Origin: Atopsyche davidsoni
Taxonomy: Eukaryota > Arthropoda > Insecta > Trichoptera > Hydrobiosidae
DNA: 64,000 bases
Direction: 5' to 3'
Assembly (NCBI GenBank): GCA_022113835.1
Contig: JAILWY010000029.1
Coordinates: 2,180,001 to 2,244,000, forward strand
The notes beneath the pieces are model-generated. The model saw only the letters and a list, made by a program, of their open reading frames with translations. It was not told the origin of the DNA and made no database searches. Made by a program: the position numbers and the translations under genes. Positions 1-64,000 of the stretch are shown here, in pieces; position 1 is the first letter of the stretch, and every line of letters starts with the position of its first letter.

Positions 1-3000
1 CAACAACATCTTCTGCCGCACCTGTTGTAACCGGCATATCAACGTCTTCTGCCGCACCTGTTGTAACCGGCATAACAACACCTTCTGCCACTCCTGTTGC
101 AACCGACATAACAACATTATCAGGCGCACCAGTAGAAACTGTCACGACAGCATCTACTGCCGCAACTGTTGAAACCGTCACAACAACATCTTCTGCCGCA
201 AGTGTTGTAACCGACATAACAACATCTTCTGCCGCACCTGTTGTAACCGGCATATCAACGTCTTCTGCCGCATCTGTTGTAACCGACACAACATCACCTT
301 CAGGCGCACCAGTAGAAACCGTCCCGACAGCATCTACTGCCGCAACTGTTGAAACCGTCAAAACAACATCTTCTTCCGCATCTGTTATAACCGACATAAC
401 AACACCTTCTGCTACTCCTGTTGCAACCGACATAACAACACCATCAGGCGCACCAGTAGAAACCGTCCCGACAGCATCTACTGCCGCAACTGTTGAACCC
501 TTAACAACAACATCTTCTGCCGCACCTGTTGTAACCGACATAACAACACGTTCTGCCACTCCTGTTGCAACCGACATAACAACACCTTCTGCCACTCCTG
601 TTGCAACCGACGTAACAACATTATCAGGCGCACCAGTAGAAACTGTCACGACAGCATCTACTGCCGTAACTGTTGAAACCGTCACAACAACATCTTCTTC
701 CGCATCTGTTGTAACCGACATAACAACACCTTCTGCCACTCCTGTTGCAACCGACGTAACAACATTATCAGGCGCACCAGTAGAAACTGTCACGACAGCA
801 TCTACTGCCGCAACTGTTGAAACCGTCACAACAACATCTTCTTCCGCACCTGTTGTAACCGACATACCAACACCTTCTGCTACTCCTGTTGCAACCGACA
901 TAACAACACCATCAGGCGCTCCAGTTGAAACCGTCCCGACAGCATCTACTGCCGCAACTGTTGAAACCGTCACAACAACATCTTCTGCCGCACCTGTTGT
1001 AACCGACATAACAACACCTTCTGCCGCACCTGTTGTAACCGGCATATCAACGTCTTCTGCCGCATCTGCTGTAACCGACACAACATCACCATCAGGCGCA
1101 CCAGTAGAGAGCGTCCCGACAGAATCTACTGCCGCAACTGTTGAAACCGTCACATTAACATCTTCTGCCGCACCTGTTGTAACCGGAATATCAACGTCTT
1201 CTGCCGCATCTGTTGTATCCGACACAACATCACCTTCAGGCGCACCAGTAGAAACCGTCCCGACAGCATCTACTGCCGCAACTGTTGAAACCGTCACAAC
1301 AACATCTTCTTCCGCACCTGTTGTAACCGACATTACAACACCTTCTGCTACTCCTGTTGCAACCGACATAACAACACCATCAGGCGCACCAGTTGAAACC
1401 GTCCCGACAGCATCTACTGCCGCAACTGTTGAAACCGTCACAACAACATCTTCTGCCGCACCTGTTGTAACCGACATAACAACACCTTCTGCCGCACCTG
1501 TTGTAACCGGCATATCAACGTCTTCTGCCGCATCTGCTGTAACCGACACAACATCACCATCAGGCGCACCAGTAGAAACCGTCCCGACAGCATCTACTGC
1601 CGCAACTGTTGAAACCGTCACAACAACATCTTCTTCCGCATCTGTTGTAACCGACATAACAACACCTTCTGCTACTCCTGTTGCAACCGACATAACAACA
1701 CCATCAGACGCACCAGTAGAAACCGTCCCGACAGCATCTACTGCCGCAACTGTTGAAACCGTCACAACAACATCTTCTTCCGCACCTGTTGTAACCGACA
1801 TAACAACACCTTCTGCCGCACCTGTTGTAACCGACATAACAACACCTTCTGCCGCACCTGTTGTAACCGACATAACAACACCTTCTGCCACTCCTGTTGC
1901 AACCGACACAACATCACCATCAGGCGCACCAGTAGAAACCGTCCCGACAGCATCTACTGCAGCACCTGTTGAAACCGTCACAACAACATCTTCTGCCGCA
2001 CCTGTTGTAACCGACATAACAACACCTTCTGCCACTCCTGTTGCAACCGACGTAACAACATTATCAGGCGCACCAGTAGAAACTGTCTCGACAGCATCTA
2101 CTGCCGCAACTGTTGAAACCGTCACAACAACACCTTCTGCCGCACCTGTTGTAACCGACATAACAACACCTTCTGCCGCACCTGTTGTAACCGACATAAC
2201 AACACCTTCTGCCACTCCTGTTGCAACCGACGTAACAACATTATCAGGCGCACCAGTAGAAACTGTCACGACAGCATCTACTGCCGCAACTGTTGAAACC
2301 GTCACAACAACATCTTCTGCCGCACCTGTTGTAACGGACATAACAACACCTTCTGCCGCACCTGTTGTAACCGACATAACAACACCTTCTGCCGCACCTG
2401 TTGTAACCGACATAACAACACCTTCTGCCACTCCTGTTGCAACCGACGTAACAACATTATCAGGCGCACCAGTAGAAACTGTCACGACAGCATCTACTGC
2501 CGCAACTGTTGAAACCGTCACAACAACATCTTCTGCCGCACCTGTTGTAACGGACATAACAACACCTTCTGCCGCACCTGTTGTAACCGACATAACAACA
2601 CCTTCTGCCGCACCTGTTGTAACCGGCATATCAACGTCTTCTGCCGCATCTGCTGTAACCGACACAACATCACCATCAGGCGCACCAGTAGAAACCGTCC
2701 CGACAGCATCTACTGCCGCAACTGTTGAAACCGTCACAACAACATCTTCTTCCGCATCTGTTGTAACCGACATAACAACACCTTCTGCTACTCCTGTTGC
2801 AACCGACATAACAACACCATCAGACGCACCAGTAGAAACCGTCCCGACAGCATCTACTGCCGCAACTGTTGAAACCGTCACAACAACATCTTCTTCCGCA
2901 CCTGTTGTAACCGACATAACAACACCTTCTGCCGCACCTGTTGTAACCGACATAACAACACCTTCTGCCGCACCTGTTGTAACCGACATAACAACACCTT

Positions 3001-6000
3001 CTGCCACTCCTGTTGCAACCGACACAACATCACCATCAGGCGCACCAGTAGAAACCGTCCCGACAGCATCTACTGCAGCAACTGTTGAAACCGTCACAAC
3101 AACATCTTCTGCCGCACCTGTTGTAACCGACATAACAACACCTTCTGCCACTCCTGTTGCAACCGACGTAACAACATTATCAGGCGCACCAGTAGAAACT
3201 GTCTCGACAGCATCTACTGCCGCAACTGTTGAAACCGTCACAACAACACCTTCTGCCGCACCTGTTGTAACCGACATAACAACACCTTCTGCCGCACCTG
3301 TTGTAACCGACATAACAACACCTTCTGCCACTCCTGTTGCAACCGACGTAACAACATTATCAGGCGCACCAGTAGAAACTGTCACGACAGCATCTACTGC
3401 CGCAACTGTTGAAACCGTCACAACAACATCTTCTGCCGCACCTGTTGTAACGGACATAACAACACCTTCTGCCGCACCTGTTGTAACCGACATAACAACA
3501 CCTTCTGCCGCACCTGTTGTAACCGACATAACAACACCTTCTGCCACTCCTGTTGCAACCGACGTAACAACATTATCAGGCGCACCAGTAGAAACTGTCA
3601 CGACAGCATCTACTGCCGCAACTGTTGAAACCGTCACAACAACATCTTCTGCCGCACCTGTTGTAACGGACATAACAACACCTTCTGCCGCACCTGTTGT
3701 AACCGACATAACAACACCTTCTGCTACTCCTGTTGCAACTGACATAACAACACCATCAAGCGCACCAGTTGAAACCGTCCCGACAGCATCTACTGCCGCA
3801 ACTGTTGAAACCGTCACAACAACATCTTCTGCCGCACCTGTTGTAACCGACATAACAACACCTTCTGCCGCACCTGTTGTAACCGACATAACAACACCTT
3901 CTGCCGCACCTGTTGTAACCGGCATATCAACGTCTTCTGCCGCATCTGCTGTATCCGACACAACATCACCATCAGGCGCACCAGTAGAAACCGTCCCGAC
4001 AGCATCTACTGCCGCAACTGTTGAAACCGTCACAACAACATCTTCTGCCGCACCTGTAGTAACCGACATAACAACACCTTCTGCCGCACCTGTTGTAACC
4101 GAGATAACAACACCTTCTGCTACTCCTGTTGCAACCGACATTACAACACCATCAGGCGCACCAGTTGAAACCGTCCCGACAGCATCTACTGCCGCAACTG
4201 TTGAAACCGTCACAACAACATCTTCTTCCGCATCTGTTGTAACCGACATAACAACACCTTCTGCTACTCCGGTTGCAACCGACATAACAACACCATCAGG
4301 CGCACCAGTAGAAACCGTCCCGACAGCATCTACTGCCGCAACTGTTGAAACCGTCACAACAACATCTTCTTCCGCACCTGTTGTAACCGACATAACAACA
4401 CCTTCTGCCGCACCTGTTGTAACCGACATAACAACACCTTCTGCCGCACCTGTTGTAACCGACATAACAACACCTTCTGCCACTCCTGTTGCAACCGACG
4501 TAACAACATTATCAGGCGCACCGGTAGAAACTGTCACGACAGCATCTACTGCCGCAACTGTTGAAACCGTCACAACAACATCTTCTGCCGCACCTGTTGT
4601 AACGGACATAACAACACCTTCTGCCGCACCTGTTGTAACCGACATAACAACACCTTCTGCCGCACCTGTTGTAACCGACATAACAACACCTTCTGCCACT
4701 CCTGTTGCAACCGACGTAACAACATTATCAGGCGCACCAGTAGAAACTGTCACGACAGCATCTACTGCCGCAACTGTTGAAACCGTCACAACAACATCTT
4801 CTGCCGCACCTGTTGTAACCGACATAACAACACCTTCTGCCGCACCTGTTGTAACCGATATAACAACACCTTCTGCCGCACCTGTTGTAACCGGCATATC
4901 AACATCTTCTGCCGCATCTGCTGTAACCGACACAACATCACCATCAGGCGCACCAGTAGAAAACGTCCCGACAGAATCTACTGCCGCAACTGTTGAAACC
5001 GTCACAACAACACCTTCTGCCGCACCTGTTGTAACCGACATAACAACACCTTCTGCCACTCCTGTTGCAACCGACGTAACAACATTATCAGGCGCACCAG
5101 TAGAAACTGTACCGACAGCATCTACTGCCGCAACTGTTGAAACCGTCACAACAACATCTTCTGCCGCAACTGTTGAAACCGTCACAACAACATCTTCTGC
5201 CGCACCTGTTGTAACCGACATAACAACATCTTCTGCCGCACCTGTTGTAACCGACATAACAACACCTTCTGCTACTCCTGTTGCAACCGACATAACAACA
5301 CCATCAGGCGCACCAGTTGAAACCGTCCCGACAGCATCTTCTGCCGCAACAGTTGAAACCGTCACAACAACATCTTCTGCCGCACCTGTTGTAACCGACA
5401 TAACAACACCTTCTGCCGCACCTGTTGTAACCGATATAACAACACCTTCTGCCGCACCTGTTGTAACCGGCATATCAACGTCTTCTGCCGCATCTGCTGT
5501 AACCGAAACAACATCACCATCAGGCGCACCAGTAGAAACCGTCCCGACAGAATCTACTGCCGCAACTGTTGAAACCGTCACAACAACATCTTCTGCCGCA
5601 CCTGTTGTAACCGACATAACAACACCTTCTGCCACTCCTGTTGCAACCGACATAACAACACCTTCTGCCGCACCTGTTGTAACCGACATAACAACACCTT
5701 CTGCTACTCTTGTTGCAACTGACATAACAACACCATCAAGCGCACCAGTTGAAACCGTCCCGACAGCATCTACTGCCGCAACTGTTGAAACCGTCACAAC
5801 AACATCTTCTGCCGCACCTGTTGTAACCGACATAACAACACCTTCTGCCGCACCTGTTGTAACCGACATAACAACACCTTCTGCCGCACCTGTTGTAACC
5901 GGCATATCAACGTCTTCTGCCGCATCTGCTGTATCCGACACAACATCACCATCAGGCGCACCAGTAGAAACCGTCCCGACAGCATCTACTGCCGCAACTG

Positions 6001-9000
6001 TTGAAACCGTCACAACAACATCTTCTGCCGCACCTTTAGTAACCGACATAACAACACCTTCTGCCGCACCTGTTGTAACCGAGATAACAACACCTTCTGC
6101 TACTCCTGTTGCAACCGACATTACAACACCATCAGGCGCACCAGTTGAAACCGTCCCGACAGCATCTACTGCCGCAACTGTTGAAACCGTCACAACAACA
6201 TCTTCTTCCGCATCTGTTGTAACCGACATAACAACACCTTCTGCTACTCCTGTTGCAACCGACATAACAACACCATCAGGCGCACCAGTAGAAACCGTCC
6301 CGACAGCATCTACTGCCGCAACTGTTGAAACCGTCACAACAACATCTTCTTCCGCACCTGTTGTAACCGACATAACAACACCTTCTGCCGCACCTGTTGT
6401 AACCGACATAACAACACCTTCTGCCGCACCTGTTGTAACCGACATAACAACACCTTCTGCCACTCCTGTTGCAACCGACGTAACAACATTATCAGGCGCA
6501 CCGGTAGAAACTGTCACGACAGCATCTACTGCCGCAACTGTTGAAACCGTCACAACAACATCTTCTGCCGCACCTGTTGTAACCGACATAACAACACCTT
6601 CTGCCGCACCTGTTGTAACCGATATAACAACACCTTCTGCCGCACCTGTTGTAACCGGCATATCAACATCTTCTGCCGCATCTGCTGTAACCGACACAAC
6701 ATCACCATCAGGCGCACCAGTAGAAAACGTCCCGACAGAATCTACTGCCGCAACTGTTGAAACCGTCACAACAACACCTTCTGCCGCACCTGTTGTAACC
6801 GACATAACAACACCTTCTGCCACTCCTGTTGCAACCGACGTAACAACATTATCAGGCGCACCAGTTGAAACCGTCCCGACAGCATCTACTGCCGCAACTG
6901 TTGAAACCGTCACAACAACATCTTCTTCCGCATCTGTTGTAACCGACATAACAACATCTTCTGCCGCACCTGTTGTAACCGACATAACAACACCTTCTGC
7001 TACTCTTGTTGCAACCGACATAACAACACCATCAGGCGCACCAGTTGAAACCGTCCCGACAGCATCTTCTGCCGCAACAGTTGAAACCGTCACAACAACA
7101 TCTTCTGCCGCACCTGTTGTAACCGACATAACAACACCTTCTGCCACTCCTGTTGCAACCGACATAACAACACCTTCTGCCGCACCTGTTGTAACCGACA
7201 TAACAACACCTTCTGCCGCACCTGTTGTAACCGACATAACAACACCTTCTGCCGCACCTGTTGTAACCGGCATATCAACGTCTTCTGCCGCATCTGCTGT
7301 AACCGACACAACATCACCATCAGGCGCACCAGTAGAAACCGTCCCGACAGCATATACTGCCGCAACTGTTGAAACCGTCACAACAACATCTTCTGCCGCA
7401 CCTGTAGTAACCGACATAACAACACCTTCTGCCGCACCTGTTGTAACCGACATAACAACACCTTCTACTACTCCTGTTGCAACCGATATTACAACACCAT
7501 CAGGCGCACCAGTTGAAACCGTCCCGACAGCATCTTCTGCCGCAACTGTTGAAACCGTCACAACAACATCTTCTGCCGCACCTGTTGTAACCGACATAAC
7601 AACACCTTCTGCCGCACCTGTTGTAACCGACATAACAACACCTTCTGCCGCACCTGTTGTAACCGGCATATCAACGTCTTCTGCCGCATCTGCTGTAACC
7701 GACACAACATCACCATCAGGCGCACCAGTAGAAACCGTCCCGACAGCATCTACTGCCGCAACTGTTGAAACCGTCACAACAACATCTTCTTCCGCACCTG
7801 TTGTAACCGACATAACAACACCTTCTGCCGCACCTGTTGTAACCGACATAACAACACCTTCTGCCGCACCTGTTGTAACCGACATAACAACACCTTCTGC
7901 CACTCCTGTTGCAACCGACGTAACAACATTATCAGGCGCACCGGTAGAAACTGTCACGACAGCATCTACTGCCGCAACTGTTGAAACCGTCACAACAACA
8001 TCTTCTGCCGCACCTGTTGTAACGGACATAACAACACCTTCTGCCGCACCTGTTGTAACCGACATAACAACACCTTCTGCCGCACCTGTTGTAACCGACA
8101 TAACAACACCTTCTGCCACTCCTGTTGCAACCGACGTAACAACATTATTAGGCGCACCAGTAGAAACTGTCACGACAGCATCTACTGCCGCAACTGTTGA
8201 AACCGTCACAACAACATCTTCTGCCGCACCTGTTGTAACCGACATAACAACACCTTCTGCCGCACCTGTTGTAACCGATATAACAACACCTTCTGCTACT
8301 CCTGTTGTAACCGGCATATCAACATCTTCTGCCGCATCTGCTGTAACCGACACAACATCACCATCAGGCGCACCAGTAGAAAACGTCCCGACAGAATCTA
8401 CTGCCGCAACTGTTGAAACCGTCACAACAACACCTTCTGCCGCACCTGTTGTAACCGACATAACAACACCTTCTGCCACTCCTGTTGCAACCGACGTAAC
8501 AACATTATCAGGCGCACCAGTTGAAACCGTCCCGACAGCATCTACTGCCGCAACTGTTGAAACCGTCACAACAACATCTTCTTCCGCATCTGTTGTAACC
8601 GACATAACAACACCTTCTGCCGCACCTGTTGTAACCGACATAACAACACCTTCTGCCGCACCTGTTGTAACCGACATAACAACACCTTCTGCCGCACCTG
8701 TTGTAACCGGCATATCAACGTCTTCTGCCGCATCTGCTGTAACCGACACAACATCACCATCAGGCGCACCAGTAGAAACCGTCCCGACAGCATATACTGC
8801 CGCAACTGTTGAAACCGTCACAACAACATCTTCTGCCGCACCTGTAGTAACCGACATAACAACACCTTCTGCCGCACCTGTTGTAACCGACATAACAACA
8901 CCTTCTACTACTCCTGTTGCAACCGATATTACAACACCATCAGGCGCACCAGTTGAAACCGTCCCGACAGCATCTTCTGCCGCAACTGTTGAAACCGTCA

Positions 9001-48000: not shown

Positions 48001-51000
48001 CTGCCGCAACTGTTGAAACCGTCACAACAACATCTTCTTCCGCATCTGTTGTAACCGACATAACAACACCTTCTGCCACTCCTGTTGCAACCGACGTAAC
48101 AACATTATCAGGCGCACCAGTAGAAACCGTCCCGACAGCATCTACTGCCGCAACTGTTGAAACCGTCACAACAACATCTTCTGCCGCACCTGTTGTAACC
48201 GACATAACAACACCTTCTGCCACACCTGTTGTAACCGACATAACACCACCTTCTGCCCCTCCTGTTGCAACCGACGTAACAACATTATCAGGCGCACCAG
48301 TAGAAACTGTCACGACAGCATCTACTGCCGCAACTGTTGAAACCGTCACAACAACATCTTCTGCCGCACCTGTTGTAACGGACATAACAACACCTTCTGC
48401 CGCACCTGTTGTAACCGACATAATAACATCTTCTGCCGCACCTGTTGTAACCGACATAACAACACCTTCTGCCACTCCTGATGCAACCGACGTAACAACA
48501 TTATCAGGCGCACCAGTAGAAACTGTCACGACAGCATCTACTGCCGCAACTGTTGAAACCGTCACAACAACATCTTCTGCCGCACCTGTTGTAACGGACA
48601 TAACAACACCTTCTGCCGCACCTGTTGTAACCGACATAACAACACCTTCTGCTACTCCTGTTGCAACTGACATAACAACACCATCAAGCGCACCAGTTGA
48701 AACCGTCCCGACAGCATCTACTGCCGCAACTGTTGAAACCGTCACAACAACATCTTCTTCCGCATCTGTTGTAACCGACATAACAACACCTTCTGCTACT
48801 CCTGTTGCAACCGACATAACAACACCATCAGGCGCACCAGTAGAAACCGTCCCGACAGCATCTACTGCCGCAACTGTTGAAACCGTCACAACAACATCTT
48901 CTGCCGCACCTGTAGTAACCGACATAACAACACCTTCTGCCGCACCTGTTGTAACCGAGATAACAACACCTTCTGCTACTCCTGTTGCAACCGACATTAC
49001 AACACCATCAGGCGCACCAGTTGAAACCGTCCCGACAGCATCTACTGCCGCAACTGTTGAAACCGTCACAACAACATCTTCTTCCGCATCTGTTGTAACC
49101 GACATAACAACACCTTCTGCTACTCCTGTTGCAACCGACATAACAACACCATCAGGCGCACCAGTAGAAACCGTCCCGACAGCATCTACTGCCGCAACTG
49201 TTGAAACCGTCACAACAACATCTTCTTCCGCACCTGTTGTAACCGACATACCAACACCTTCTGCTCCTCCTGTTGCAACCGACATAACAACACCATCAGG
49301 CGCTCCAGTTGAAACCGTCCCGAGAGCATCTACTGCCGCAACTGTTGAAACCGTCACAACAACATCTTCTGCCGCACCTGTTGTAACCGACATAACAACA
49401 CCTTCTGCCACTCCTGTTGCAACCGACGTAACAACATTATCAGGCGCACCAGTAGAAACTGTCACGACAGCATCTACTGCCGCAACTGTTGAAACCGTCA
49501 CAACAACACCTTCTGCCGCACCTGTTGTAACCGACATAACAACACCTTCTGCCGCACCTGTTGTAACCGACATAACAACACCTTCTGCCACTCCTGTTGC
49601 AACCGACGTAACAACATTATCAGGCGCACCAGTAGAAACTGTCACGACAGCATCTACTGCCGCAACTGTTGAAACCGTCACAACAACATCTTCTGCCGCA
49701 CCTGTTGTAACGGACATAACAACACCTTCTGCCGCACCTGTTGTAACCGACATAACAACACCTTCTGCTACTCCTGTTGCAACTGACATAACAACACCAT
49801 CAAGCGCACCAGTTGAAACCGTCCCGACAGCATCTACTGCCGCAACTGTTGAAACCGTCACAACAACATCTTCTTCCGCACCTGTTGTAACCGACATAAC
49901 AACACCTTCTGTCGCACCTGTTGTAACCGACATAACAACACCTTCTGCCGCACCTGTTGTAACCGACATAACAACACCTTCTGCCACTCCTGTTGCAACC
50001 GACGTAACAACATTATCAGGCGCACCAGTAGAAACTGTCACGACAGCATCTACTGCCGCAACTGTTGAAACCGTCACAACAACATCTTCTTCCGCATCTG
50101 TTGTAACCGACATAACAACACCTTCTGCCACTCCTGTTGCAACCGACGTAACAACATTATCAGGCGCACCAGTAGAAACCGTCCCGACAGCATCTACTGC
50201 CGCAACTGTTGAAACCGTCACAACAACATCTTCTGCCGCACCTGTTGTAACCGACATAACAACACCTTCTGCCGCACCTGTTGTAACCGACATAACAACA
50301 CCTTCTGCCCCTCCTGTTGCAACCGACGTAACAACATTATCAGGCGCACCAGTAGAAACTGTCACGACAGCATCTACTGCCGCAACTGTTGAAACCGTCA
50401 CAACAACATCTTCTGCCGCACCTGTTGTAACGGACATAACAACACCTTCTGCCGCACCTGTTGTAACCGACATAATAACACCTTCTGCCGCACCTGTTGT
50501 AACCGACATAACAACACCTTCTGCCACTCCTGATGCAACCGACGTAACAACATTATCAGGCGCACCAGTAGAAACTGTCACGACAGCATCTACTGCCGCA
50601 ACTGTTGAAACCGTCACAACAACATCTTCTGCCGCACCTGTTGTAACGGACATAACAACACCTTCTGCCGCACCTGTTGTAACCGACATAACAACACCTT
50701 CTGCTACTCCTGTTGCAACTGACATAACAACACCATCAAGCGCACCAGTTGAAACCGTCCCGACAGCATCTACTGCCGCAACTGTTGAAACCGTCACAAC
50801 AACATCTTCTTCCGCATCTGTTGTAACCGACATAACAACACCTTCTGCTACTCCTGTTGCAACCGACATAACAACACCATCAGGCGCACCAGTAGAAACC
50901 GTCCCGACAGCATCTACTGCCGCAACTGTTGAAACCGTCACAACAACATCTTCTGCCGCACCTGTAGTAACCGACATAACAACACCTTCTGCCGCACCTG

Positions 51001-54000
51001 TTGTAACCGAGATAACAACACCTTCTGCTACTCCTGTTGCAACCGACATTACAACACCATCAGGCGCACCAGTTGAAACCGTCCCGACAGCATCTACTGC
51101 CGCAACTGTTGAAACCGTCACAACAACATCTTCTTCCGCATCTGTTGTAACCGACATAACAACACCTTCTGCTACTCCTGTTGCAACCGACATAACAACA
51201 CCATCAGGCGCACCAGTAGAAACCGTCCCGACAGCATCTACTGCCGCAACTGTTGAAACCGTCACAACAACATCTTCTTCCGCACCTGTTGTAACCGACA
51301 TAACAACACCTTCTGCCGCACCTGTTGTAACCGACATAACAACACCTTCTGCCGCACCTGTTGTAACCGACATAACAACACCTTCTGCCACTCCTGTTGC
51401 AACCGACGTAACAACATTATCAGGCGCACCAGTAGAAACTGTCACGACAGCATCTACTGCCGCAACTGTTGAAACCGTCACAACAACATCTTCTGCCGCA
51501 CCTGTTGTAACGGACATAACAACACCTTCTGCCGCACCTGTTGTAACCGACATAACAACACCTTCTGCCGCACCTGTTGTAACCGACATAACAACACCTT
51601 CTGCCACTCCTGTTGCAACCGACGTAACAACATTATCAGGCGCACCAGTAGAAACTGTCACGACAGCATCTACTGCCGCAACTGTTGAAACCGTCACAAC
51701 AACATCTTCTGCCGCACCTGTTGTAACGGACATAACAACACCTTCTGCCGCACCTGTTGTAACCGACATAACAACACCTTCTGCTACTCCTGTTGCAACT
51801 GACACAACATCACCATCAGGCGCACCAGTAGAAACCGTCCCGACAGCATCTACTGCCGTAACTGTTGAAACCGTCACAACAACATCTTCTGCCGCACCTG
51901 TAGTAACCGACATAACAACACCTTCTGCCGCACCTGTTGTAACCGAGATAACAACACCTTCTGCTACTCCTGTTGCAACCGACATTACAACACCATCAGG
52001 CGCACCAGTTGAAACCGTCCCGACAGCATCTACTGCCGCAACTGTTGAAACCGTCACAACAACATCTTCTTCCGCATCTGTTGTAACCGACATAACAACA
52101 CCTTCTGCTACTCCGGTTGCAACCGACATAACAACACCATCAGGCGCACCAGTAGAAACCGTCCCGACAGCATCTACTGCCGCAACTGTTGAAACCGTCA
52201 CAACAACATCTTCTTCCGCACCTGTTGTAACCGACATAACAACACCTTCTGCCGCACCTGTTGTAACCGACATAACAACACCTTCTGCCGCACCTGTTGT
52301 AACCGACATAACAACACCTTCTGCCACTCCTGTTGCAACCGACGTAACAACATTATCAGGCGCACCGGTAGAAACTGTCACGACAGCATCTACTGCCGCA
52401 ACTGTTGAAACCGTCACAACAACATCTTCTGCCGCACCTGTTGTAACGGACATAACAACACCTTCTGCCGCACCTGTTGTAACCGACATAACAACACCTT
52501 CTGCCGCACCTGTTGTAACCGACATAACAACACCTTCTGCCACTCCTGTTGCAACCGACGTAACAACATTATCAGGCGCACCAGTAGAAACTGTCACGAC
52601 AGCATCTACTGCCGCAACTGTTGAAACCGTCACAACAACATCTTCTGCCGCACCTGTTGTAACCGACATAACAACACCTTCTGCCGCACCTGTTGTAACC
52701 GATATAACAACACCTTCTGCCGCACCTGTTGTAACCGGCATATCAACATCTTCTGCCGCATCTGCTGTAACCGACACAACATCACCATCAGGCGCACCAG
52801 TAGAAAACGTCCCGACAGAATCTACTGCCGCAACTGTTGAAACCGTCACAACAACACCTTCTGCCGCACCTGTTGTAACCGACATAACAACACCTTCTGC
52901 CACTCCTGTTGCAACCGACGTAACAACATTATCAGGCGCACCAGTAGAAACTGTACCGACAGCATCTACTGCCGCAACTGTTGAAACCGTCACAACAACA
53001 TCTTCTGCCGCAACTGTTGAAACCGTCACAACAACATCTTCTGCCGCACCTGTTGTAACCGACATAACAACATCTTCTGCCGCACCTGTTGTAACCGACA
53101 TAACAACACCTTCTGCTACTCCTGTTGCAACCGACATAACAACACCATCAGGCGCACCAGTTGAAACCGTCCCGACAGCATCTTCTGCCGCAACAGTTGA
53201 AACCGTCACAACAACATCTTCTGCCGCACCTGTTGTAACCGACATAACAACACCTTCTGCCGCACCTGTTGTAACCGATATAACAACACCTTCTGCCGCA
53301 CCTGTTGTAACCGGCATATCAACGTCTTCTGCCGCATCTGCTGTAACCGAAACAACATCACCATCAGGCGCACCAGTAGAAACCGTCCCGACAGAATCTA
53401 CTGCCGCAACTGTTGAAACCGTCACAACAACATCTTCTGCCGCACCTGTTGTAACCGACATAACAACACCTTCTGCCACTCCTGTTGCAACCGACATAAC
53501 AACACCTTCTGCCGCACCTGTTGTAACCGACATAACAACACCTTCTGCCGCACCTGTTGTAACCGACATAACAACACCTTCTGCCGCACCTGTTGTAACC
53601 GGCATATCAACGTCTTCTGCCGCATCTGCTGTAACCGACACAACATCACCATCAGGCGCACCAGTAGAAACCGTCCCGACAGCATATACTGCCGCAACTG
53701 TTGAAACCGTCACAACAACATCTTCTGCCGCACCTGTAGTAACCGACATAACAACACCTTCTGCCGCACCTGTTGTAACCGACATAACAACACCTTCTAC
53801 TACTCCTGTTGCAACCGATATTACAACACCATCAGGCGCACCAGTTGAAACCGTCCCGACAGCATCTTCTGCCGCAACTGTTGAAACCGTCACAACAACA
53901 TCTTCTGCCGCACCTGTTGTAACCGACATAACAACATCTTCTGCCGCACCTGTTGTAACCGACATAACAACACCTTCTGCCGCACCTGTTGTAACCGGCA

Positions 54001-57000: not shown

Positions 57001-60000
57001 CAGGCGCACCAGTAGAAACCGTCCCGACAGAATCTACTGCCGCAACTGTTGAAACCGTCACAACAACATCTTCTGCCGCACCTGTTGTAACCGACATAAC
57101 AACACCTTCTGCCACTCCTGTTGCAACCGACATAACAACACCTTCTGCCGCACCTGTTGTAACCGACATAACAACACCTTCTGCCGCACCTGTTGTAACC
57201 GACATAACAACACCTTCTGCCGCACCTGTTGTAACCGGCATATCAACGTCTTCTGCCGCATCTGCTGTAACCGACACAACATCACCATCAGGCGCACCAG
57301 TAGAAACCGTCCCGACAGCATATACTGCCGCAACTGTTGAAACCGTCACAACAACATCTTCTGCCGCACCTGTAGTAACCGACATAACAACACCTTCTGC
57401 CGCACCTGTTGTAACCGACATAACAACACCTTCTACTACTCCTGTTGCAACCGATATTACAACACCATCAGGCGCACCAGTTGAAACCGTCCCGACAGCA
57501 TCTTCTGCCGCAACTGTTGAAACCGTCACAACAACATCTTCTGCCGCACCTGTTGTAACCGACATAACAACACCTTCTGCCGCACCTGTTGTAACCGACA
57601 TAACAACACCTTCTGCCGCACCTGTTGTAACCGGCATATCAACGTCTTCTGCCGCATCTGCTGTAACCGACACAACATCACCATCAGGCGCACCAGTAGA
57701 AAGCGTCCCGACAGAATCTACTGCCGCAACTGTTGAAACCGTCACATTAACATCTTCTGCCGCACCTGTTGTAACCGGAATATCAACGTCTTCTGCCGCA
57801 TCTGTTGTATCCGACACAACATCACCTTCAGGCGCACCAGTAGAAACCGTCCCGACAGCATCTACTGCCGCAACTGTTGAAACCGTCACAACAACATCTT
57901 CTGCCGCACCTGTTGTAACGGACATAACAACACCTTCTGCCGCACCTGTTGTAACCGACATAACAACACCTTCTGCCGCACCTGTTGTAACCGACATAAC
58001 AACACCTTCTGCCACTCCTGTTGCAACCGACGTAACAACATTATCAGGCGCACCAGTAGAAACTGTCACGACAGCATCTACTGCCGCAACTGTTGAAACC
58101 GTCACAACAACATCTTCTTCCGCATCTGTTGTAACCGACATAACAACACCTTCTGCTACTCCTGTTGCAACCGACATAACAACACCATCAGGCGCACCAG
58201 TAGAAACCGTCCCGACAGCATCTACTGCCGCAACTGTTGAAACCGTCACAACAACATCTTCTTCCGCACCTGTTGTAACCGACATAACAACACCTTCTGC
58301 CGCACCTGTTGTAACCGACATAACAACACCTTCTGCCGCACCTGTTGTAACCGACATAACAACACCTTCTGCCACTCCTGTTGCAACCGACGTAACAACA
58401 TTATCAGGCGCACCAGTAGAAACTGTCACGACAGCATCTACTGCCGCAACTGTTGAAACCGTCACAACAACATCTTCTGCCGCACCTGTTGTAACGGACA
58501 TAACAACACCTTCTGCCGCACCTGTTGTAACCGACATAACAACACCTTCTGCCGCACCTGTTGTAACCGACATAACAACACCTTCTGCCACTCCTGTTGC
58601 AACCGACGTAACAACATTATCAGGCGCACCAGTAGAAACTGTCACGACAGCATCTACTGCCGCAACTGTTGAAACCGTCACAACAACATCTTCTGCCGCA
58701 CCTGTTGTAACGGACATAACAACACCTTCTGCCGCACCTGTTGTAACCGACATAACAACACCTTCTGCCGCACCTGTTGTAACCGACATAACAACACCTT
58801 CTGCCACTCCTGTTGCAACCGACGTAACAACATTATCAGGCGCACCAGTAGAAACTGTCACGACAGCATCTACTGCCGCAACTGTTGAAACCGTCACAAC
58901 AACATCTTCTGCCGCACCTGTTGTAACGGACATAACAACACCTTCTGCCGCACCTGTTGTAACCGACATAACAACACCTTCTGCTACTCCTGTTGCAACT
59001 GACATAACAACACCATCAAGCGCACCAGTTGAAACCGTCCCGACAGCATCTACTGCCGCAACTGTTGAAACCGTCACAACAACATCTTCTTCCGCATCTG
59101 TTGTAACCGACATAACAACACCTTCTGCTACTCCTGTTGCAACCGACATAACAACACCATCAGGCGCACCAGTAGAAACCGTCCCGACAGCATCTACTGC
59201 CGCAACTGTTGAAACCGTCACAACAACATCTTCTGCCGCACCTGTAGTAACCGACATAACAACACCTTCTGCCGCACCTGTTGTAACCGAGATAACAACA
59301 CCTTCTGCTACTCCTGTTGCAACTGACATAACAACACCATCAAGCGCACCAGTTGAAACCGTCCCGACAGCATCTACTGCCGCAACTGTTGAAACCGTCA
59401 CAACAACATCTTCTTCCGCATCTGTTGTAACCGACATAACAACACCTTCTGCTACTCCTGTTGCAACCGACATAACAACACCATCAGGCGCACCAGTAGA
59501 AACCGTCCCGACAGCATCTACTGCCGCAACTGTTGAAACCGTCACAACAACATCTTCTTCCGCACCTGTTGTAACCGACATACCAACACCTTCTGCTCCT
59601 CCTGTTGCAACCGACATAACAACACCATCAGGCGCTCCAGTTGAAACCGTCCCGAGAGCATCTACTGCCGCAACTGTTGAAACCGTCACAACAACATCTT
59701 CTGCCGCACCTGTTGTAACCGACATAACAACACCTTCTGCCACTCCTGTTGCAACCGACGTAACAACATTATCAGGCGCACCAGTAGAAACTGTCACGAC
59801 AGCATCTACTGCCGCAACTGTTGAAACCGTCACAACAACACCTTCTGCCGCACCTGTTGTAACCGACATAACAACACCTTCTGCCGCACCTGTTGTAACC
59901 GACATAACAACACCTTCTGCCACTCCTGTTGCAACCGACGTAACAACATTATCAGGCGCACCAGTAGAAACTGTCACGACAGCATCTACTGCCGCAACTG

Positions 60001-63000
60001 TTGAAACCGTCACAACAACATCTTCTGCCGCACCTGTTGTAACGGACATAACAACACCTTCTGCCGCACCTGTTGTAACCGACATAACAACACCTTCTGC
60101 TACTCCTGTTGCAACTGACATAACAACACCATCAAGCGCACCAGTTGAAACCGTCCCGACAGCATCTACTGCCGCAACTGTTGAAACCGTCACAACAACA
60201 TCTTCTTCCGCACCTGTTGTAACCGACATAACAACACCTTCTGTCGCACCTGTTGTAACCGACATAACAACACCTTCTGCCGCACCTGTTGTAACCGACA
60301 TAACAACACCTTCTGCCACTCCTGTTGCAACCGACGTAACAACATTATCAGGCGCACCAGTAGAAACTGTCACGACAGCATCTACTGCCGCAACTGTTGA
60401 AACCGTCACAACAACATCTTCTTCCGCATCTGTTGTAACCGACATAACAACACCTTCTGCCACTCCTGTTGCAACCGACGTAACAACATTATCAGGCGCA
60501 CCAGTAGAAACCGTCCCGACAGCATCTACTGCCGCAACTGTTGAAACCGTCACAACAACATCTTCTGCCGCACCTGTTGTAACCGACATAACAACACCTT
60601 CTGCCGCACCTGTTGTAACCGACATAACAACACCTTCTGCCCCTCCTGTTGCAACCGACGTAACAACATTATCAGGCGCACCAGTAGAAACTGTCACGAC
60701 AGCATCTACTGCCGCAACTGTTGAAACCGTCACAACAACATCTTCTGCCGCACCTGTTGTAACGGACATAACAACACCTTCTGCCGCACCTGTTGTAACC
60801 GACATAATAACACCTTCTGCCGCACCTGTTGTAACCGACATAACAACACCTTCTGCCACTCCTGATGCAACCGACGTAACAACATTATCAGGCGCACCAG
60901 TAGAAACTGTCACGACAGCATCTACTGCCGCAACTGTTGAAACCGTCACAACAACATCTTCTGCCGCACCTGTTGTAACGGACATAACAACACCTTCTGC
61001 CGCACCTGTTGTAACCGACATAACAACACCTTCTGCTACTCCTGTTGCAACTGACATAACAACACCATCAAGCGCACCAGTTGAAACCGTCCCGACAGCA
61101 TCTACTGCCGCAACTGTTGAAACCGTCACAACAACATCTTCTTCCGCATCTGTTGTAACCGACATAACAACACCTTCTGCTACTCCTGTTGCAACCGACA
61201 TAACAACACCATCAGGCGCACCAGTAGAAACCGTCCCGACAGCATCTACTGCCGCAACTGTTGAAACCGTCACAACAACATCTTCTGCCGCACCTGTAGT
61301 AACCGACATAACAACACCTTCTGCCGCACCTGTTGTAACCGAGATAACAACACCTTCTGCTACTCCTGTTGCAACCGACATTACAACACCATCAGGCGCA
61401 CCAGTTGAAACCGTCCCGACAGCATCTACTGCCGCAACTGTTGAAACCGTCACAACAACATCTTCTTCCGCATCTGTTGTAACCGACATAACAACACCTT
61501 CTGCTACTCCTGTTGCAACCGACATAACAACACCATCAGGCGCACCAGTAGAAACCGTCCCGACAGCATCTACTGCCGCAACTGTTGAAACCGTCACAAC
61601 AACATCTTCTTCCGCACCTGTTGTAACCGACATAACAACACCTTCTGCCGCACCTGTTGTAACCGACATAACAACACCTTCTGCCGCACCTGTTGTAACC
61701 GACATAACAACACCTTCTGCCACTCCTGTTGCAACCGACGTAACAACATTATCAGGCGCACCAGTAGAAACTGTCACGACAGCATCTACTGCCGCAACTG
61801 TTGAAACCGTCACAACAACATCTTCTGCCGCACCTGTTGTAACGGACATAACAACACCTTCTGCCGCACCTGTTGTAACCGACATAACAACACCTTCTGC
61901 CGCACCTGTTGTAACCGACATAACAACACCTTCTGCCACTCCTGTTGCAACCGACGTAACAACATTATCAGGCGCACCAGTAGAAACTGTCACGACAGCA
62001 TCTACTGCCGCAACTGTTGAAACCGTCACAACAACATCTTCTGCCGCACCTGTTGTAACGGACATAACAACACCTTCTGCCGCACCTGTTGTAACCGACA
62101 TAACAACACCTTCTGCTACTCCTGTTGCAACTGACACAACATCACCATCAGGCGCACCAGTAGAAACCGTCCCGACAGCATCTACTGCCGTAACTGTTGA
62201 AACCGTCACAACAACATCTTCTGCCGCACCTGTAGTAACCGACATAACAACACCTTCTGCCGCACCTGTTGTAACCGAGATAACAACACCTTCTGCTACT
62301 CCTGTTGCAACCGACATTACAACACCATCAGGCGCACCAGTTGAAACCGTCCCGACAGCATCTACTGCCGCAACTGTTGAAACCGTCACAACAACATCTT
62401 CTTCCGCATCTGTTGTAACCGACATAACAACACCTTCTGCTACTCCGGTTGCAACCGACATAACAACACCATCAGGCGCACCAGTAGAAACCGTCCCGAC
62501 AGCATCTACTGCCGCAACTGTTGAAACCGTCACAACAACATCTTCTTCCGCACCTGTTGTAACCGACATAACAACACCTTCTGCCGCACCTGTTGTAACC
62601 GACATAACAACACCTTCTGCCGCACCTGTTGTAACCGACATAACAACACCTTCTGCCACTCCTGTTGCAACCGACGTAACAACATTATCAGGCGCACCGG
62701 TAGAAACTGTCACGACAGCATCTACTGCCGCAACTGTTGAAACCGTCACAACAACATCTTCTGCCGCACCTGTTGTAACGGACATAACAACACCTTCTGC
62801 CGCACCTGTTGTAACCGACATAACAACACCTTCTGCCGCACCTGTTGTAACCGACATAACAACACCTTCTGCCACTCCTGTTGCAACCGACGTAACAACA
62901 TTATCAGGCGCACCAGTAGAAACTGTCACGACAGCATCTACTGCCGCAACTGTTGAAACCGTCACAACAACATCTTCTGCCGCACCTGTTGTAACCGACA

Positions 63001-64000
63001 TAACAACACCTTCTGCCGCACCTGTTGTAACCGATATAACAACACCTTCTGCCGCACCTGTTGTAACCGGCATATCAACATCTTCTGCCGCATCTGCTGT
63101 AACCGACACAACATCACCATCAGGCGCACCAGTAGAAAACGTCCCGACAGAATCTACTGCCGCAACTGTTGAAACCGTCACAACAACACCTTCTGCCGCA
63201 CCTGTTGTAACCGACATAACAACACCTTCTGCCACTCCTGTTGCAACCGACGTAACAACATTATCAGGCGCACCAGTAGAAACTGTACCGACAGCATCTA
63301 CTGCCGCAACTGTTGAAACCGTCACAACAACATCTTCTGCCGCAACTGTTGAAACCGTCACAACAACATCTTCTGCCGCACCTGTTGTAACCGACATAAC
63401 AACATCTTCTGCCGCACCTGTTGTAACCGACATAACAACACCTTCTGCTACTCCTGTTGCAACCGACATAACAACACCATCAGGCGCACCAGTTGAAACC
63501 GTCCCGACAGCATCTTCTGCCGCAACAGTTGAAACCGTCACAACAACATCTTCTGCCGCACCTGTTGTAACCGACATAACAACACCTTCTGCCGCACCTG
63601 TTGTAACCGATATAACAACACCTTCTGCCGCACCTGTTGTAACCGGCATATCAACGTCTTCTGCCGCATCTGCTGTAACCGAAACAACATCACCATCAGG
63701 CGCACCAGTAGAAACCGTCCCGACAGAATCTACTGCCGCAACTGTTGAAACCGTCACAACAACATCTTCTGCCGCACCTGTTGTAACCGACATAACAACA
63801 CCTTCTGCCACTCCTGTTGCAACCGACATAACAACACCTTCTGCCGCACCTGTTGTAACCGACATAACAACACCTTCTGCCGCACCTGTTGTAACCGACA
63901 TAACAACACCTTCTGCCGCACCTGTTGTAACCGGCATATCAACGTCTTCTGCCGCATCTGCTGTAACCGACACAACATCACCATCAGGCGCACCAGTAGA
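1..64000 (+). CDS. Interior of a giant Thr/Ser/Ala/Val/Pro-rich 12-residue-repeat protein, partial at both ends
   Basis: Codons begin at position 3, and 21,332 full codons follow without a stop that I could find. The two leading bases fit the end of a preceding ACA codon. The protein is about 1,777 consecutive 12-residue units of the form T-T-[SPL]-S-[AG]-[AT]-[PTS]-V-[VAE]-T-[DGV]-[ITVP]. About 40% of residues are Thr or Ser. There is usually one Asp or Glu per unit, and Lys or Arg is extremely rare. I saw no Cys, Met, Trp, His or Gln codon. No signal peptide, membrane segment, anchor or catalytic domain lies inside the window; such parts, if present, are at the unseen ends. Start and stop are both outside. 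Many third-base differences are silent (acc/act/acg, gcc/gct, gtt/gta, ata/att), and no frameshift was seen. The likely role, by composition only, is an extended acidic extracellular stalk, adhesin, coat or mucin-like fibre. The alternative is a non-coding 36-bp satellite, made unlikely by the perfectly kept frame. Confidence 0.85.
111..182 (+). repeat. Example of the punctuating two-unit module (TTLSGAPVETVT then TASTAATVETVT)
   Basis: Here the SGAPVE-type unit is followed by the STAATVE-type unit. This ordered pair recurs throughout the window, typically every four to eight units. Both members put Glu at residue 9 instead of Asp at residue 11. The first member's codons 3-5 (tta tca ggc) create stops in antisense frames. 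The second member's gtt-gaa junction creates TGA in plus frame 2. These two unit types therefore close the competing frames. Confidence 0.88.
255..362 (+). repeat. Example of the three-unit module STSSAASVVTDT / TSPSGAPVETVP / TASTAATVETV-
   Basis: This is a second, longer punctuating module. A Ser-Thr-starting unit with Ser at residue 7 and Thr at residue 12 leads into TSPSGAPVETVP, then the TASTAATVETVT unit. In this copy the final codon of the third unit (360-362) is aaa (Lys) instead of aca (Thr), one of very few basic residues in the window. In most later copies the first unit reads STSSAASAVTDT, with Ala at residue 8. Confidence 0.85.
975..1046 (+). repeat. Example of the core unit class (TTSSAAPVVTDI then TTPSAAPVVTGI)
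   Basis: These two adjacent units show the most frequent class. Codon 3 alternates between tct (Ser) and cct (Pro), and codon 11 between gac (Asp) and ggc (Gly). A frequent relative replaces residues 6 and 9 to give TTPSATPVATDI or TTPSATPVATDV (for example 75-110). Runs of two to five core units separate the punctuating units. The Gly-11 form normally precedes a unit beginning Ser-Thr (tca acg). Confidence 0.9.
1500..3720 (+). repeat. Tandem duplication with 1,116-bp (31-unit) period
   Basis: Sequence from about 1,500 to 2,600 reappears 1,116 bp downstream (about 2,616 to 3,716). It includes an unusual gca-gca codon pair ('actgcagca') near 1,960 and 3,075. One difference is visible there: the next codon reads cct in the first copy and act in the second. 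The copies diverge where the second changes to gct act near 3,722. Confidence 0.75.
3960..5700 (+). repeat. 1.7-kb dispersed block, copy 1 of 3
   Basis: This block matches 51,804-53,544 at an offset of 47,844 bp (1,329 units). Shared rare variants include ccg for cct near 4,269, ccg for cca near 4,522, 'gaaactgtaccg' at 5,103, and gaa for gac in the 'gtaaccgaaaca' unit near 5,507. The match ends near 5,703, where this copy changes to gct act. Confidence 0.75.
5151..5186 (+). repeat. Hybrid unit TTSSAATVETVT (core head, Glu-class tail)
   Basis: This unit follows an ordinary TASTAATVETVT unit rather than an SGAPVE unit. Its head is of the core class and its tail of the STAATVE class. Equivalent units occur near 27,363, 29,271, 30,927, 38,955, 40,611, 52,995 and 63,327. 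The 5,151, 52,995 and 63,327 copies belong to the dispersed 1.7-kb block. The copies near 29.3, 30.9, 39.0 and 40.6 kb belong to the 46-unit blocks. Confidence 0.75.
10479..10514 (+). repeat. Chimeric unit at a higher-order block junction
   Basis: This unit reads TASSAATVVTDI. Its head is of the TASTAATVETVT class and its tail is of the core class. It sits at the boundary where the 2,484-bp block ends and a 2,880-bp block begins. It fits an in-register crossover within the shared gcc gca act/cct gtt stretch, leaving a 36-bp unit with the frame kept. Confidence 0.7.
16059..16094 (+). repeat. Second copy of the chimeric junction unit
   Basis: This is the same TASSAATVVTDI hybrid, 5,580 bp after the one at 10,479. 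It again lies at the end of a short (2,700-bp) block. The crossover scar appears to have been copied along with the 5,580-bp double block. Confidence 0.7.
25140..26620 (+). repeat. 1.48-kb block repeated at 31,224-32,704
   Basis: The offset is 6,084 bp (169 units). Shared markers are the Asp-8/Leu-Ala module, the 'cattaacatct' unit, 'caccattagaaacc' near 25,831, and ata-ata ('cataataaca') near 26,099. One difference noticed is tct versus tcg near 32,196. Confidence 0.7.
28155..28226 (+). repeat. Two-unit variant module TTSSAAPDVTDI then LASTAAPVVTDI
   Basis: Codon 8 is gat (Asp) instead of gtt (Val), and the next unit starts tta gca (Leu-Ala). This pair is a useful marker. It also starts at about 25,131, 28,335, 29,559, 31,215, 39,243 and 40,899. 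The 28,155 and 28,335 copies are a local 180-bp (5-unit) tandem duplication. The second carries aac for gac after the Leu-Ala unit's acc, near 28,401. Confidence 0.75.
28890..32106 (+). repeat. Tandem pair of 1,656-bp (46-unit) blocks
   Basis: 28,890-30,450 matches 30,546-32,106. Markers shared at exactly 1,656-bp spacing are gtc-ata ('accgtcataaca'), gac-cta (cta at 29,160 and 30,816), 'atcgggcgca' with ttc-ccg, and the Asp-8 module. Differences noticed are tct/cct near 28,965 and gtt/gta near 30,050/31,706. Confidence 0.75.
35750..36950 (+). repeat. 1.2-kb block repeated at 43,130-44,330
   Basis: The offset is 7,380 bp (205 units). Both copies carry gca-aac-gac (Asn for Thr, near 36,033 and 43,413), gat-ctt (ctt at 36,360 and 43,740), gca-att, and gag-agc. 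Differences are act/aca near 36,093/43,473 and gtt/gta near 36,890/44,270. Confidence 0.72.
38220..38720 (+). repeat. Copy 1 of a six-copy block marked by Val-5 (gtc) and Pro-6 (cct) variants
   Basis: A gtc codon in place of gcc at 38,283 is followed 399 bp later by cct in place of act at 38,682. The same pair with the same 399-bp spacing occurs at 41,667/42,066, 45,663/46,062, 47,859/48,258, 49,911/50,310 and 60,243/60,642. The block therefore moved as a unit six times. Distances between copies are 94, 111, 61, 57 and 287 units. Confidence 0.78.
38941..41174 (+). repeat. Distant copy of 29,257-31,490, again with the 46-unit tandem period
   Basis: The offset is 9,684 bp (269 units). The Asp-8 module is at 39,264 and 40,920 (gat codon positions), 1,656 bp apart as in the first locus, and the cta marker is at 40,500. 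The match ends near 41,180, where gac-ata becomes gac-gta. Confidence 0.72.
42340..43170 (+). repeat. Block repeated at 1,980-bp and 2,016-bp offsets (about 44,320 and 46,336)
   Basis: 42,340-43,170 matches about 44,320-45,150 and then about 46,336-47,166. A related stretch is at 35,430-35,990. Each copy contains three successive core units followed by TTPSATPVATDI and an SGAPVE unit whose codon 8 is gtt. Copies 2 and 3 continue into 'cccgagagca' (Arg) units at 45,255 and 47,271. Confidence 0.7.
47198..51301 (+). repeat. Tandem duplication with 2,052-bp (57-unit) period
   Basis: 47,198-49,249 is followed directly by its copy at 49,250-51,301. Paired markers 2,052 bp apart are aga (Arg) at 47,271/49,323, gtc at 47,859/49,911, cct at 48,258/50,310, and cct-gat-gca near 48,480/50,532. 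Differences noticed are gca/aca near 47,812/49,864 and aca/acc variation near 48,245. The copies diverge at 49,250/51,302, where acc-aaca becomes aac-aaca. Confidence 0.75.
48360..53668 (+). repeat. 5.3-kb segment repeated at 10,332-bp (287-unit) offset, copy 1
   Basis: This matches 58,692-64,000. Paired markers are aga 49,323/59,655, gtc 49,911/60,243, cct 50,310/60,642, gta 51,858/62,190, and 'gaaactgtaccg' 52,947/63,279. All are exactly 10,332 bp apart. There is a small patch of differences at 48,990-49,010 (gac-att, tca-ggc) versus 59,322-59,342 (gac-ata, tca-agc), and scattered ones before it. Confidence 0.75.
51804..53544 (+). repeat. 1.7-kb dispersed block, copy 2 of 3
   Basis: This is the same block as 3,960-5,700, with the 'gaaactgtaccg' marker at 52,947. 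It carries gta instead of gca at 51,858, a variant shared with the third copy (62,190) but not the first. Copies 2 and 3 are therefore closest relatives. Confidence 0.75.
56811..56846 (+). repeat. Hybrid SGAPVE unit lacking its STAATVE partner
   Basis: This unit reads TTPSGAPVETVT and is followed directly by a core unit (from 56,847) instead of TASTAATVETVT. Its last codons, gaa acc gtc aca, are those of the missing partner. This fits an in-register exchange across the shared gtt-gaa-acc-gtc stretch that removed exactly 36 bp and left the frame intact. It is the one exception I found to the pairing rule. Confidence 0.7.
58692..64000 (+). repeat. 5.3-kb segment repeated at 10,332-bp offset, copy 2, truncated by window edge
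   Basis: This is the partner of 48,360-53,668. It still matches at the last base, so the duplication continues beyond the window. The array ends mid-unit at 63,975-64,000 in a TSPSGAPVE-type unit. Confidence 0.75.
62136..63876 (+). repeat. 1.7-kb dispersed block, copy 3 of 3
   Basis: The 'gaaactgtaccg' marker is at 63,279 and the gta variant at 62,190, each exactly 10,332 bp (287 units) after the equivalent in copy 2. This copy lies inside the 10.3-kb-offset duplication that runs into the right edge. Confidence 0.75.

Follow-up and report, generated by a model that had tools for sequence, protein, structure and literature searches.

What kind of sequence keeps a reading frame open across 64,000 nucleotides of an insect genome? 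The question is raised by C29:2180001-2244000, a stretch of contig JAILWY010000029.1 (C29) in the 370.7-Mb, 80-contig assembly of the caddisfly Atopsyche davidsoni. This 64,000-nucleotide stretch, hereafter the window, was analyzed together with 100 kb of the same contig on each side. We propose, at a probability of roughly 0.6, that the window falls in the central part of a genuine coding gene, termed gene C, which encodes a giant secreted mucin-type polymer of 50,239 residues in one frame. The gene model is well supported at the DNA level by its ends, a promoter-like sequence and paralogues; its transcript and protein are predicted.

Open frames of the window and the extent of gene C

A six-frame count revealed neither a stop nor an ATG in plus frame 3 of the window over 21,332 codons (three GTG, no TTG), in agreement with the initial annotation. 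The further claim that all other frames are closed was wrong for one of them: minus frame 1 is likewise free of stops over 21,333 codons, among which are 812 ATG and 687 GTG. The accompanying warning of antisense shadows was apt. The remaining frames carry 1,901 (plus frame 1), 498 (plus frame 2), 934 (minus frame 2) and 717 (minus frame 3) stops. Minus frame 1 is open because its register is offset by one base, so that a stop there requires a Tyr, His or Gln codon on the plus strand, and the plus-frame codons of the window include 10 Tyr, no His and no Gln. As a second frame is open throughout the window, openness alone cannot identify the coding strand. Once the flanks are included, minus frame 1 stays open for 43,854 codons, with both ends inside the array region, and inspection by eye, confined to its first 300 residues, revealed no signal-peptide-like start. 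It was rejected as the gene and is not thought to be coding; it appears to be a shadow of the codon make-up. The features of the window are as follows.

Window 3..63998, plus strand: interior of gene C, codons 22,900-44,231 of 50,239, without stops, from register and unit analysis, codon mapping and gene ends
Window 1..64000, minus strand: antisense shadow frame (minus frame 1, 812 ATG), from the six-frame count with flanks
Window 2..63977, plus strand: tandem array, Tandem Repeats Finder rows of period 144, 180 and 216 bp
Window 9831-63908, plus strand: array, Tandem Repeats Finder row of the basic period of 36 bp
Window 49012..53936, plus strand: first copy of the longest exact repeat (4,925 bp), from an exact-repeat search of gene C

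Outward translation, which the initial annotation had proposed as a check, located both gene ends in the flanks, outside the window as predicted. The frame is open from C29:2111234 to 2262022, with the first ATG at 2111306 and a TAG at 2262023-2262025. The whole gene C accordingly occupies C29:2111306-2262025 on the plus strand, from 68.7 kb left to 18.0 kb right of the window. These ends comprise, on the 5' side, a TATA box and an ATG with a signal-peptide-like beginning and, on the 3' side, a unique C-terminal tail and an AATAAA about 48 nt past the TAG. The frame comprises 50,239 unbroken codons, that is 150,720 bases without a stop or frameshift, and its coding part requires no intron. The interior of an exceptionally long coding frame had been suspected from some 21,300 codons, a suspicion that is supported and was understated. 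The frame had also been described as invisible to ATG-based gene calling; this holds within the window only, as an ATG with promoter-like sequence lies 68.7 kb upstream.

Gene C begins with MKKLLIMLCLVRAVLGQ, which is signal-peptide-like by eye. Residues up to 747 consist of older, diverged repeats followed by array-like units one codon out of phase, and the regular array then spans residues 748-49,504, in which 4,063 in-register units of 36 bp (12 residues) make up ~97% of the product. The C-terminal region of 735 residues includes a duplicated 115-residue segment and Lys-containing segments. The product has a calculated mass of 4.78 MDa and a pI of 4.05, and is composed mainly of Thr (28.3%), Ala (16.2%), Val (15.5%), Ser (13.4%) and Pro (10.8%), with Ser plus Thr (S+T) at 41.7%. 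Only 4 Cys, 3 Trp and 10 Met occur in the 50,239 residues; the last Cys is residue 49,774, leaving none in the final 465, and the array, itself without Cys, is nearly free of Lys and Arg (9 of 21,332 residues in the window). Just outside the regular array, an odd 10-residue stretch with Cys, His and Arg occurs in two copies (Cys at residues 49,530 and 49,648) and looks like a small compensated frame shift. Directly 5' of the gene C promoter, at C29 ~2109800-2111200, mariner-like transposase remnants were recognized by eye.

On its plus strand, gene C has a single AATAAA, at residue 543, a single GTAAGT, at residue 403, and a pair of ATTAAA within the tail; a first-order Markov model predicts ~23, ~11 and ~23, respectively. 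This scarcity follows from the content of the repeat unit and shows only that the array does not block a long transcript. The AATAAA at residue 543 is a possible candidate for an early transcript end.

Paralogues, promoter-like sequence and mucin class

Judged from the sequence, it is the gene-like ends, the promoter and the paralogues, more than the open frame, that lift gene C above chance. Three shorter paralogues share the contig.

C29:2059896-2087213, plus strand: gene A, 9,105 codons in one unbroken frame from ATG to stop
C29:2098449-2105975, plus strand: gene B, 2,508 codons in one unbroken frame from ATG to stop
C29:2264351-2266711, plus strand: gene D, 786 codons in one unbroken frame from ATG to stop

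The starts of A, B and D (MKSILIVYCLAGAILGQ, MKNLLIVYCLAGAFLGQ and MKSLLIVFCLAGAVVGQ, respectively) match that of gene C. Over the 175 nt 5' of the ATG, TATA box included, the six pairs of A-D are 79-91% identical in ungapped columns, with gene C 91% identical to gene D, and the TATA box precedes the ATG by 67 nt in C and by 66 nt in each of the other three. A scan of C29:2.02-2.34 Mb for boxes at most 130 nt from a signal-like ATG, a selected set by design, returned 15 genes, 11 of which (A-F and five further left) have 66-70 nt between TATA and ATG. A second TATA of gene F lies at 93 nt, and the remaining four genes have theirs at 48, 80, 80 and 103 nt.

The tails of A, B, C and D align along their length. 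The ratio of non-synonymous to synonymous differences (pN/pS) in the tail is 0.78 (bootstrap interval 0.64-0.92) for A-C, 0.71 (0.56-0.88) for A-D and 0.80 (0.68-0.93) for C-D, which suggests weak constraint in these three pairs and shows none in A-B, B-C and B-D; signal-peptide comparisons among A-D are too short to distinguish. Genes C (stop at C29:2262023) and A (2087211) end before the final 14-19 residues kept in B and D, and DNA matching those residues is still recognizable 3' of both stops. Gene A, 24 kb upstream of gene C, is likewise giant and mucin-like and is coded in one frame, with a 12-residue repeat family of its own: only 0.1% of the in-frame 36-mers of gene C occur in gene A, as do 17% of its in-frame 18-mers.

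Insect mucins have been defined by S+T above 25%, a length above 300 residues and Pro/Thr/Ser repeats over one third of the length (PMC2515642). By this Drosophila rule, gene C is classed from its sequence as a mucin, with S+T of 41.7%, Pro of 10.8% and canonical repeats over residues 748-49,504 of 50,239. The stricter combination of S+T of at least 40% and Pro of at least 5% is reached by 4,305 of its 5,014 windows of 100 residues, and the paralogues pass the 25% rule with 35.6-36.2%. Gel-forming and peritrophin-type mucins carry Cys-rich domains (VWD, cystine knot, peritrophin-A), and spidroins carry a conserved C-terminal domain. In addition, a conserved N-terminal domain is described for spidroins (PMC6553539). 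Domains of these kinds (Cys-rich mucin, peritrophin, spidroin) were absent from Pfam scans of residues 1-1000 and of the last 901 residues of gene C; the former gave no match at all, and the latter three unrelated matches, all below cut-offs. A Senescence-family assignment of the tail was rejected, the match lying below its cut-off. Homologue search with the gene C tail and gene E found nothing at E of 0.001 or less, in a protein collection that seems poor in eukaryotes, and a PDB sequence search with the last 234 residues of gene C gave no match.

A mucin of this class need not serve silk or adhesion. Insect mucins occur in the gut, salivary gland and other organs (PMC2515642), and a planthopper eggshell mucin is known (PMC6530529), so gene C might instead serve the gut or peritrophic matrix, the eggshell or a defensive secretion. 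This would be a variant of the proposed mucin gene, with odds that overlap those of the gene itself, and we consider it unlikely, though a serious contender. The Cys-free array, which cannot hold a peritrophin-type domain, and the lack of such a domain at either scanned end (residues 1-1000 and the last 901) speak against it, as does the L-fibroin match described below, which points to a fibroin-silk insect.

The surrounding cluster, C29:2020001-2276002, comprises the 15 TATA-bearing genes with signal-like starts and is of mixed content. Neighbouring genes encode Lys-rich secreted-type proteins of 121, 382 and 404 residues; gene E encodes a non-mucin protein of 549 residues, and gene F a Pro-rich protein of 492 residues with repeated KR sites. 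The Pro-rich type of the cluster, with its repeated KR cleavage-type sites, resembles antimicrobial precursors by eye, and the 15-gene cluster also includes Ser/Asn-repeat proteins. Among eight cluster genes scanned in full with Pfam, only gene D exceeded a cut-off (Cementoin, 51.7 against 27 bits); as the match covers TTAAPV repeats and looks compositional, this identity was rejected. Three weak protein matches to the gene D tail were not believed either: two look like low-complexity matches to what by eye are phage tape-measure proteins, for one of which the best match is a Gly/Asn-rich stretch.

The repeat array and alternatives to a full-length product

Divided into consecutive 36-bp steps, the array yields 4,063 units, rich in Thr, Ser, Pro, Ala and Val, that fall into 301 types at the DNA level and 210 at the peptide level. 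The register is well kept: 1,204 of 1,206 matches to one peptide motif are in phase, and the other two precede the regular array. Compared to the 49 types with at least 10 copies, 3,448 units are identical, and 470, 131, 12 and 2 differ at one, two, three and four bases, respectively. As all units lie within four substitutions of a common type, a hidden pair of compensating indels is unlikely. Protein autocorrelation peaks at 60, 120 and 72 residues, and units of the TASTAATVETVT type are most often spaced 4-6 units apart.

To what extent the frame itself has been kept by selection was approached through the unit variants. Of the 301 types, 247 are one substitution away from a more frequent type; the remainder are the most frequent type itself and 53 that have no such one-step parent and were excluded. 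These 247 variants contain no stop in the plus frame, with 2.4 expected for randomly placed substitutions of the same kind (P = 0.079), and one stop in the open antisense frame, with 2.5 expected. In the other four frames, where only parents open in the frame were taken (80, 166, 165 and 170 of 247), the observed stops number 9, 14, 11 and 15 against 8.4, 6.6, 12.1 and 16.8 expected. Indels were gauged from the non-coding flanks of the paralogues, with 9 indels and 156 substitutions 5' of the ATG in the six pairs of A-D, and 9 indels and 91 substitutions 3' of the stop, where only A-B and C-D were kept because the four remaining comparisons were below 70% identity; the pairs are not independent. 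The pooled ratio of 18 indels to 247 substitutions predicts ~11 frame-shifting and ~7 in-frame indels among the 247 array changes, and none was seen.

Several of these results, together with others, weigh against a real gene with a full-length product. The avoidance of stops in the gene C frame is not significant, and the open frame by itself is only modest evidence beyond chance. The absence of indels is no clean test of selection on the frame, because short in-frame indels are missing too. Purifying selection on residues within the units left no sign in the 171 rare one-step variants (types with at most three copies), which divide into 46 synonymous and 125 non-synonymous changes, compared to 51.2 and 118.2 expected. 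Tail pN/pS intervals reach 1 in three pairs, namely A-B (0.80, 0.59-1.09), B-C (0.87, 0.73-1.07) and B-D (1.08, 0.84-1.42), and the duplicated tail copies of gene C differ by one synonymous and eight non-synonymous changes. The signal peptide of gene C has an Arg, and those of A, B and D have none there. As regards the mucin class, the 40% rule is reached by only 36 of 901 windows in A, 31 of 241 in B and 31 of 69 in D, gene C lacks the CXCXC motif of silk Mucin-1, and far smaller mucins (85-358 kDa) are described in the silk studies on caddisflies and moths cited below.

Part of this evidence would fit a coding gene whose central array has expanded in a satellite-like manner and yields no full-length product, either as an allele-length variant, expressed or silent, or in drift towards a pseudogene, with A, B and D functional. 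The substitution spectrum inside the units is neutral, constraint on the tail is weak and the tail of gene C is duplicated, its signal peptide is altered, and both C and A terminate before the point reached by B and D, leaving recognizable C-terminal sequence past the stop. By contrast, 150,720 bases without a stop or frameshift, a pre-ATG sequence 91% identical to that of gene D, and a tail with pN/pS of 0.78-0.80 against A and D, with intervals below 1, argue for an intact gene. We rate an array that is not made in full as rather unlikely.

An assembly artefact, in which the array is real and its length inflated or scrambled, appears quite improbable. The mitochondrial-gene contig of the same assembly does have broken frames, and a 10.3-kb segmental duplication exists within the array: the second copy of the 4,925-bp repeat begins at window 59344 and extends beyond the window end, at a copy spacing of 10,332 bp. 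However, this is the longest exact repeat, and every 5-kb word of gene C is unique, so reads longer than 5 kb can place each segment; moreover, the 264-kb region contains no N, and gene C no frame-breaking error. A plain non-coding 36-bp satellite, open in two frames by chance, is very improbable and was rejected on the ends, paralogues and promoter. In its favour, a unit length divisible by three readily leaves some frame open, as two are here, and with these codons few nonsense mutations arise (2.4 expected). Against it, the array continues the frame of a signal-peptide start and leads in register into a unique tail, both of which recur in three shorter paralogues, the older diverged repeats on both of its sides keep the same frame, and no odd-length unit was seen among the 4,063.

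A putative giant silk or adhesive mucin

The predicted product of gene C would most likely serve as a giant mucin in silk or in adhesion. A search of the genome revealed a light-chain fibroin exon, seen as an L-fibroin (PF05849) match at C15:4181848-4182054, with 44.4 bits, above the cut-off, and covering model positions 144-220 (77 of 242); no such match occurs in 14 control genomes. L- and H-fibroin silk is common to moths and caddisflies (PMC9684489), and by this match the genome is that of a fibroin-silk insect. Fibroin_P25 (PF07294) gave no match in the genome in a search without a positive control, so that its absence is not shown; a caddisfly silk study found FibL and FibH and no P25 homologue, and P25 appears unique to moths (PMC9432349). 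These results agree best with a caddisfly, and an early-branching moth would be the less likely alternative.

The rest of the assembly offers a few further observations. One contig starts with (AACCT)n, a TTAGG-type telomere repeat, which, like the L-fibroin match and the cluster of secreted low-complexity genes, is in keeping with a silk-spinning insect. The contigs sampled measure 2.3-17.9 Mb (12 among numbers 1-30) or at most 70 kb (all 28 above 30). C77:1-6000, the start of a 51-kb contig, holds mitochondrial genes with broken COX1, COX3 and ND5 frames, which would be a nuclear copy or an assembly error. Their order, with the protein genes named by eye, is COX1-L2-COX2-K-D, ATP6, COX3-G-ND3-A-R-N-S1-E-F-ND5-H, which we take to be the ancestral insect order. 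Contig C80 was rejected as the mitochondrion; it has a Ty3/gypsy-like retroelement frame and, by eye, an AT-rich repeat in common with C30 (2.26 Mb), which, as a guess, may be a sex chromosome.

Compared to known systems, gene C resembles the Drosophila Muc/Mur mucins, including the salivary glue proteins Sgs1 and Sgs3, in the dominance of Pro/Thr/Ser repeats, but differs from that set (300-23,000 residues) in having 50,239 residues in one frame and an array almost free of Lys, Arg and Cys (PMC2515642). The silk-coating Mucin-1 and Mucin-2 of moths and caddisflies are likewise large, fast-evolving secreted repeat proteins of FibL-bearing insects; the sizes given for these mucins are 85-358 kDa, and Y. 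cagnagella Muc1 and Muc2 have 32 and 24 exons, unlike the single coding frame of gene C (PMC9745057, PMC9684489, PMC9432349). The Limnephilus lunatus Caz (cadhesin) genes are also clustered paralogues for secreted, repetitive, putatively adhesive proteins, whereas most of them have two exons, the first coding for part of the signal peptide, and gene C and its paralogues code signal peptide and repeats in one frame (PMC11092239). Spider aggregate-gland AgSp1 and AgSp2 are giant, repetitive, Thr-bearing glycoprotein glue genes, and spider glue adhesion has been attributed to glycosylation (PMC6553539). Gene C has 3.6 times the length of AgSp1 (42,270 bp coding, one intron, conserved spidroin N-terminal domain; PMC6553539), and no such domain was detected in its residues 1-1000.

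We propose that the TATA promoter type common to the neighbouring paralogues drives transcription of gene C, and that an N-terminal signal peptide takes the chain into the secretory pathway. The ~4,060 12-residue units would be O-glycosylated on their dense Thr and Ser, which would make the chain a stiff, acidic and hydrated bottle brush devoid of cysteines; attachment to lipid, fibre or other components may occur through the Lys-containing segments near the C-terminus. The product might then act as a coating or adhesive of labial-gland silk, laid down with the adjoining Lys-rich secreted proteins, which is the weakest step; its role would be to coat silk or to act as an adhesive under water, possibly jointly with these basic neighbours. 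The array probably grew within an older, smaller mucin gene via unequal exchange of whole 36-bp units, with unit amino-acid sequence close to neutral, and frame, composition and length being what is kept. That a 151-kb frame yields one continuous secreted animal polypeptide of ~50,000 residues, a silk or adhesive mucin with residues nearly free to drift and length, frame and composition kept, is a tentative proposal, which we put at slightly less than an even chance.

Titin and PKZILLA-1 (~45,000 residues) are among the largest known proteins, and giant Omnitrophota proteins of ~85,000 residues have been predicted in bacteria. Because of these larger bacterial predictions, no length record for all life is claimed; by the sizes given here, a product of ~50,000 residues would possibly be the longest eukaryotic protein so far. 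The yardstick of ~36,000 residues given in the initial annotation is out of date, the longest TrEMBL entry in release 2024-06 having 45,354 residues (PMC12192501). Gene C, if made, would exceed that entry; alike in extreme length, it differs in being a secreted, low-complexity chain coded by one frame. The literature searched, which omitted most subscription papers and bioRxiv, contained no description of an insect protein or single exon as large as this.

For the study of such proteins, the near absence of Lys and Arg from the array means that trypsin-based silk proteomics would miss it, and the many ATGs of the antisense frame mean that simple open reading frame calling could annotate the wrong strand. 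RNA polymerase II transcribes 1-2 kb per minute, and translation adds ~5 residues per second. At these rates, transcription of one gene C molecule would last more than one hour, and its translation nearly three. If made, gene C would test the limits of transcribing, translating and secreting one chain from one uninterrupted frame, and together with its paralogues it would offer materials research a graded natural series of related polymers of 786, 2,508, 9,105 and 50,239 residues.
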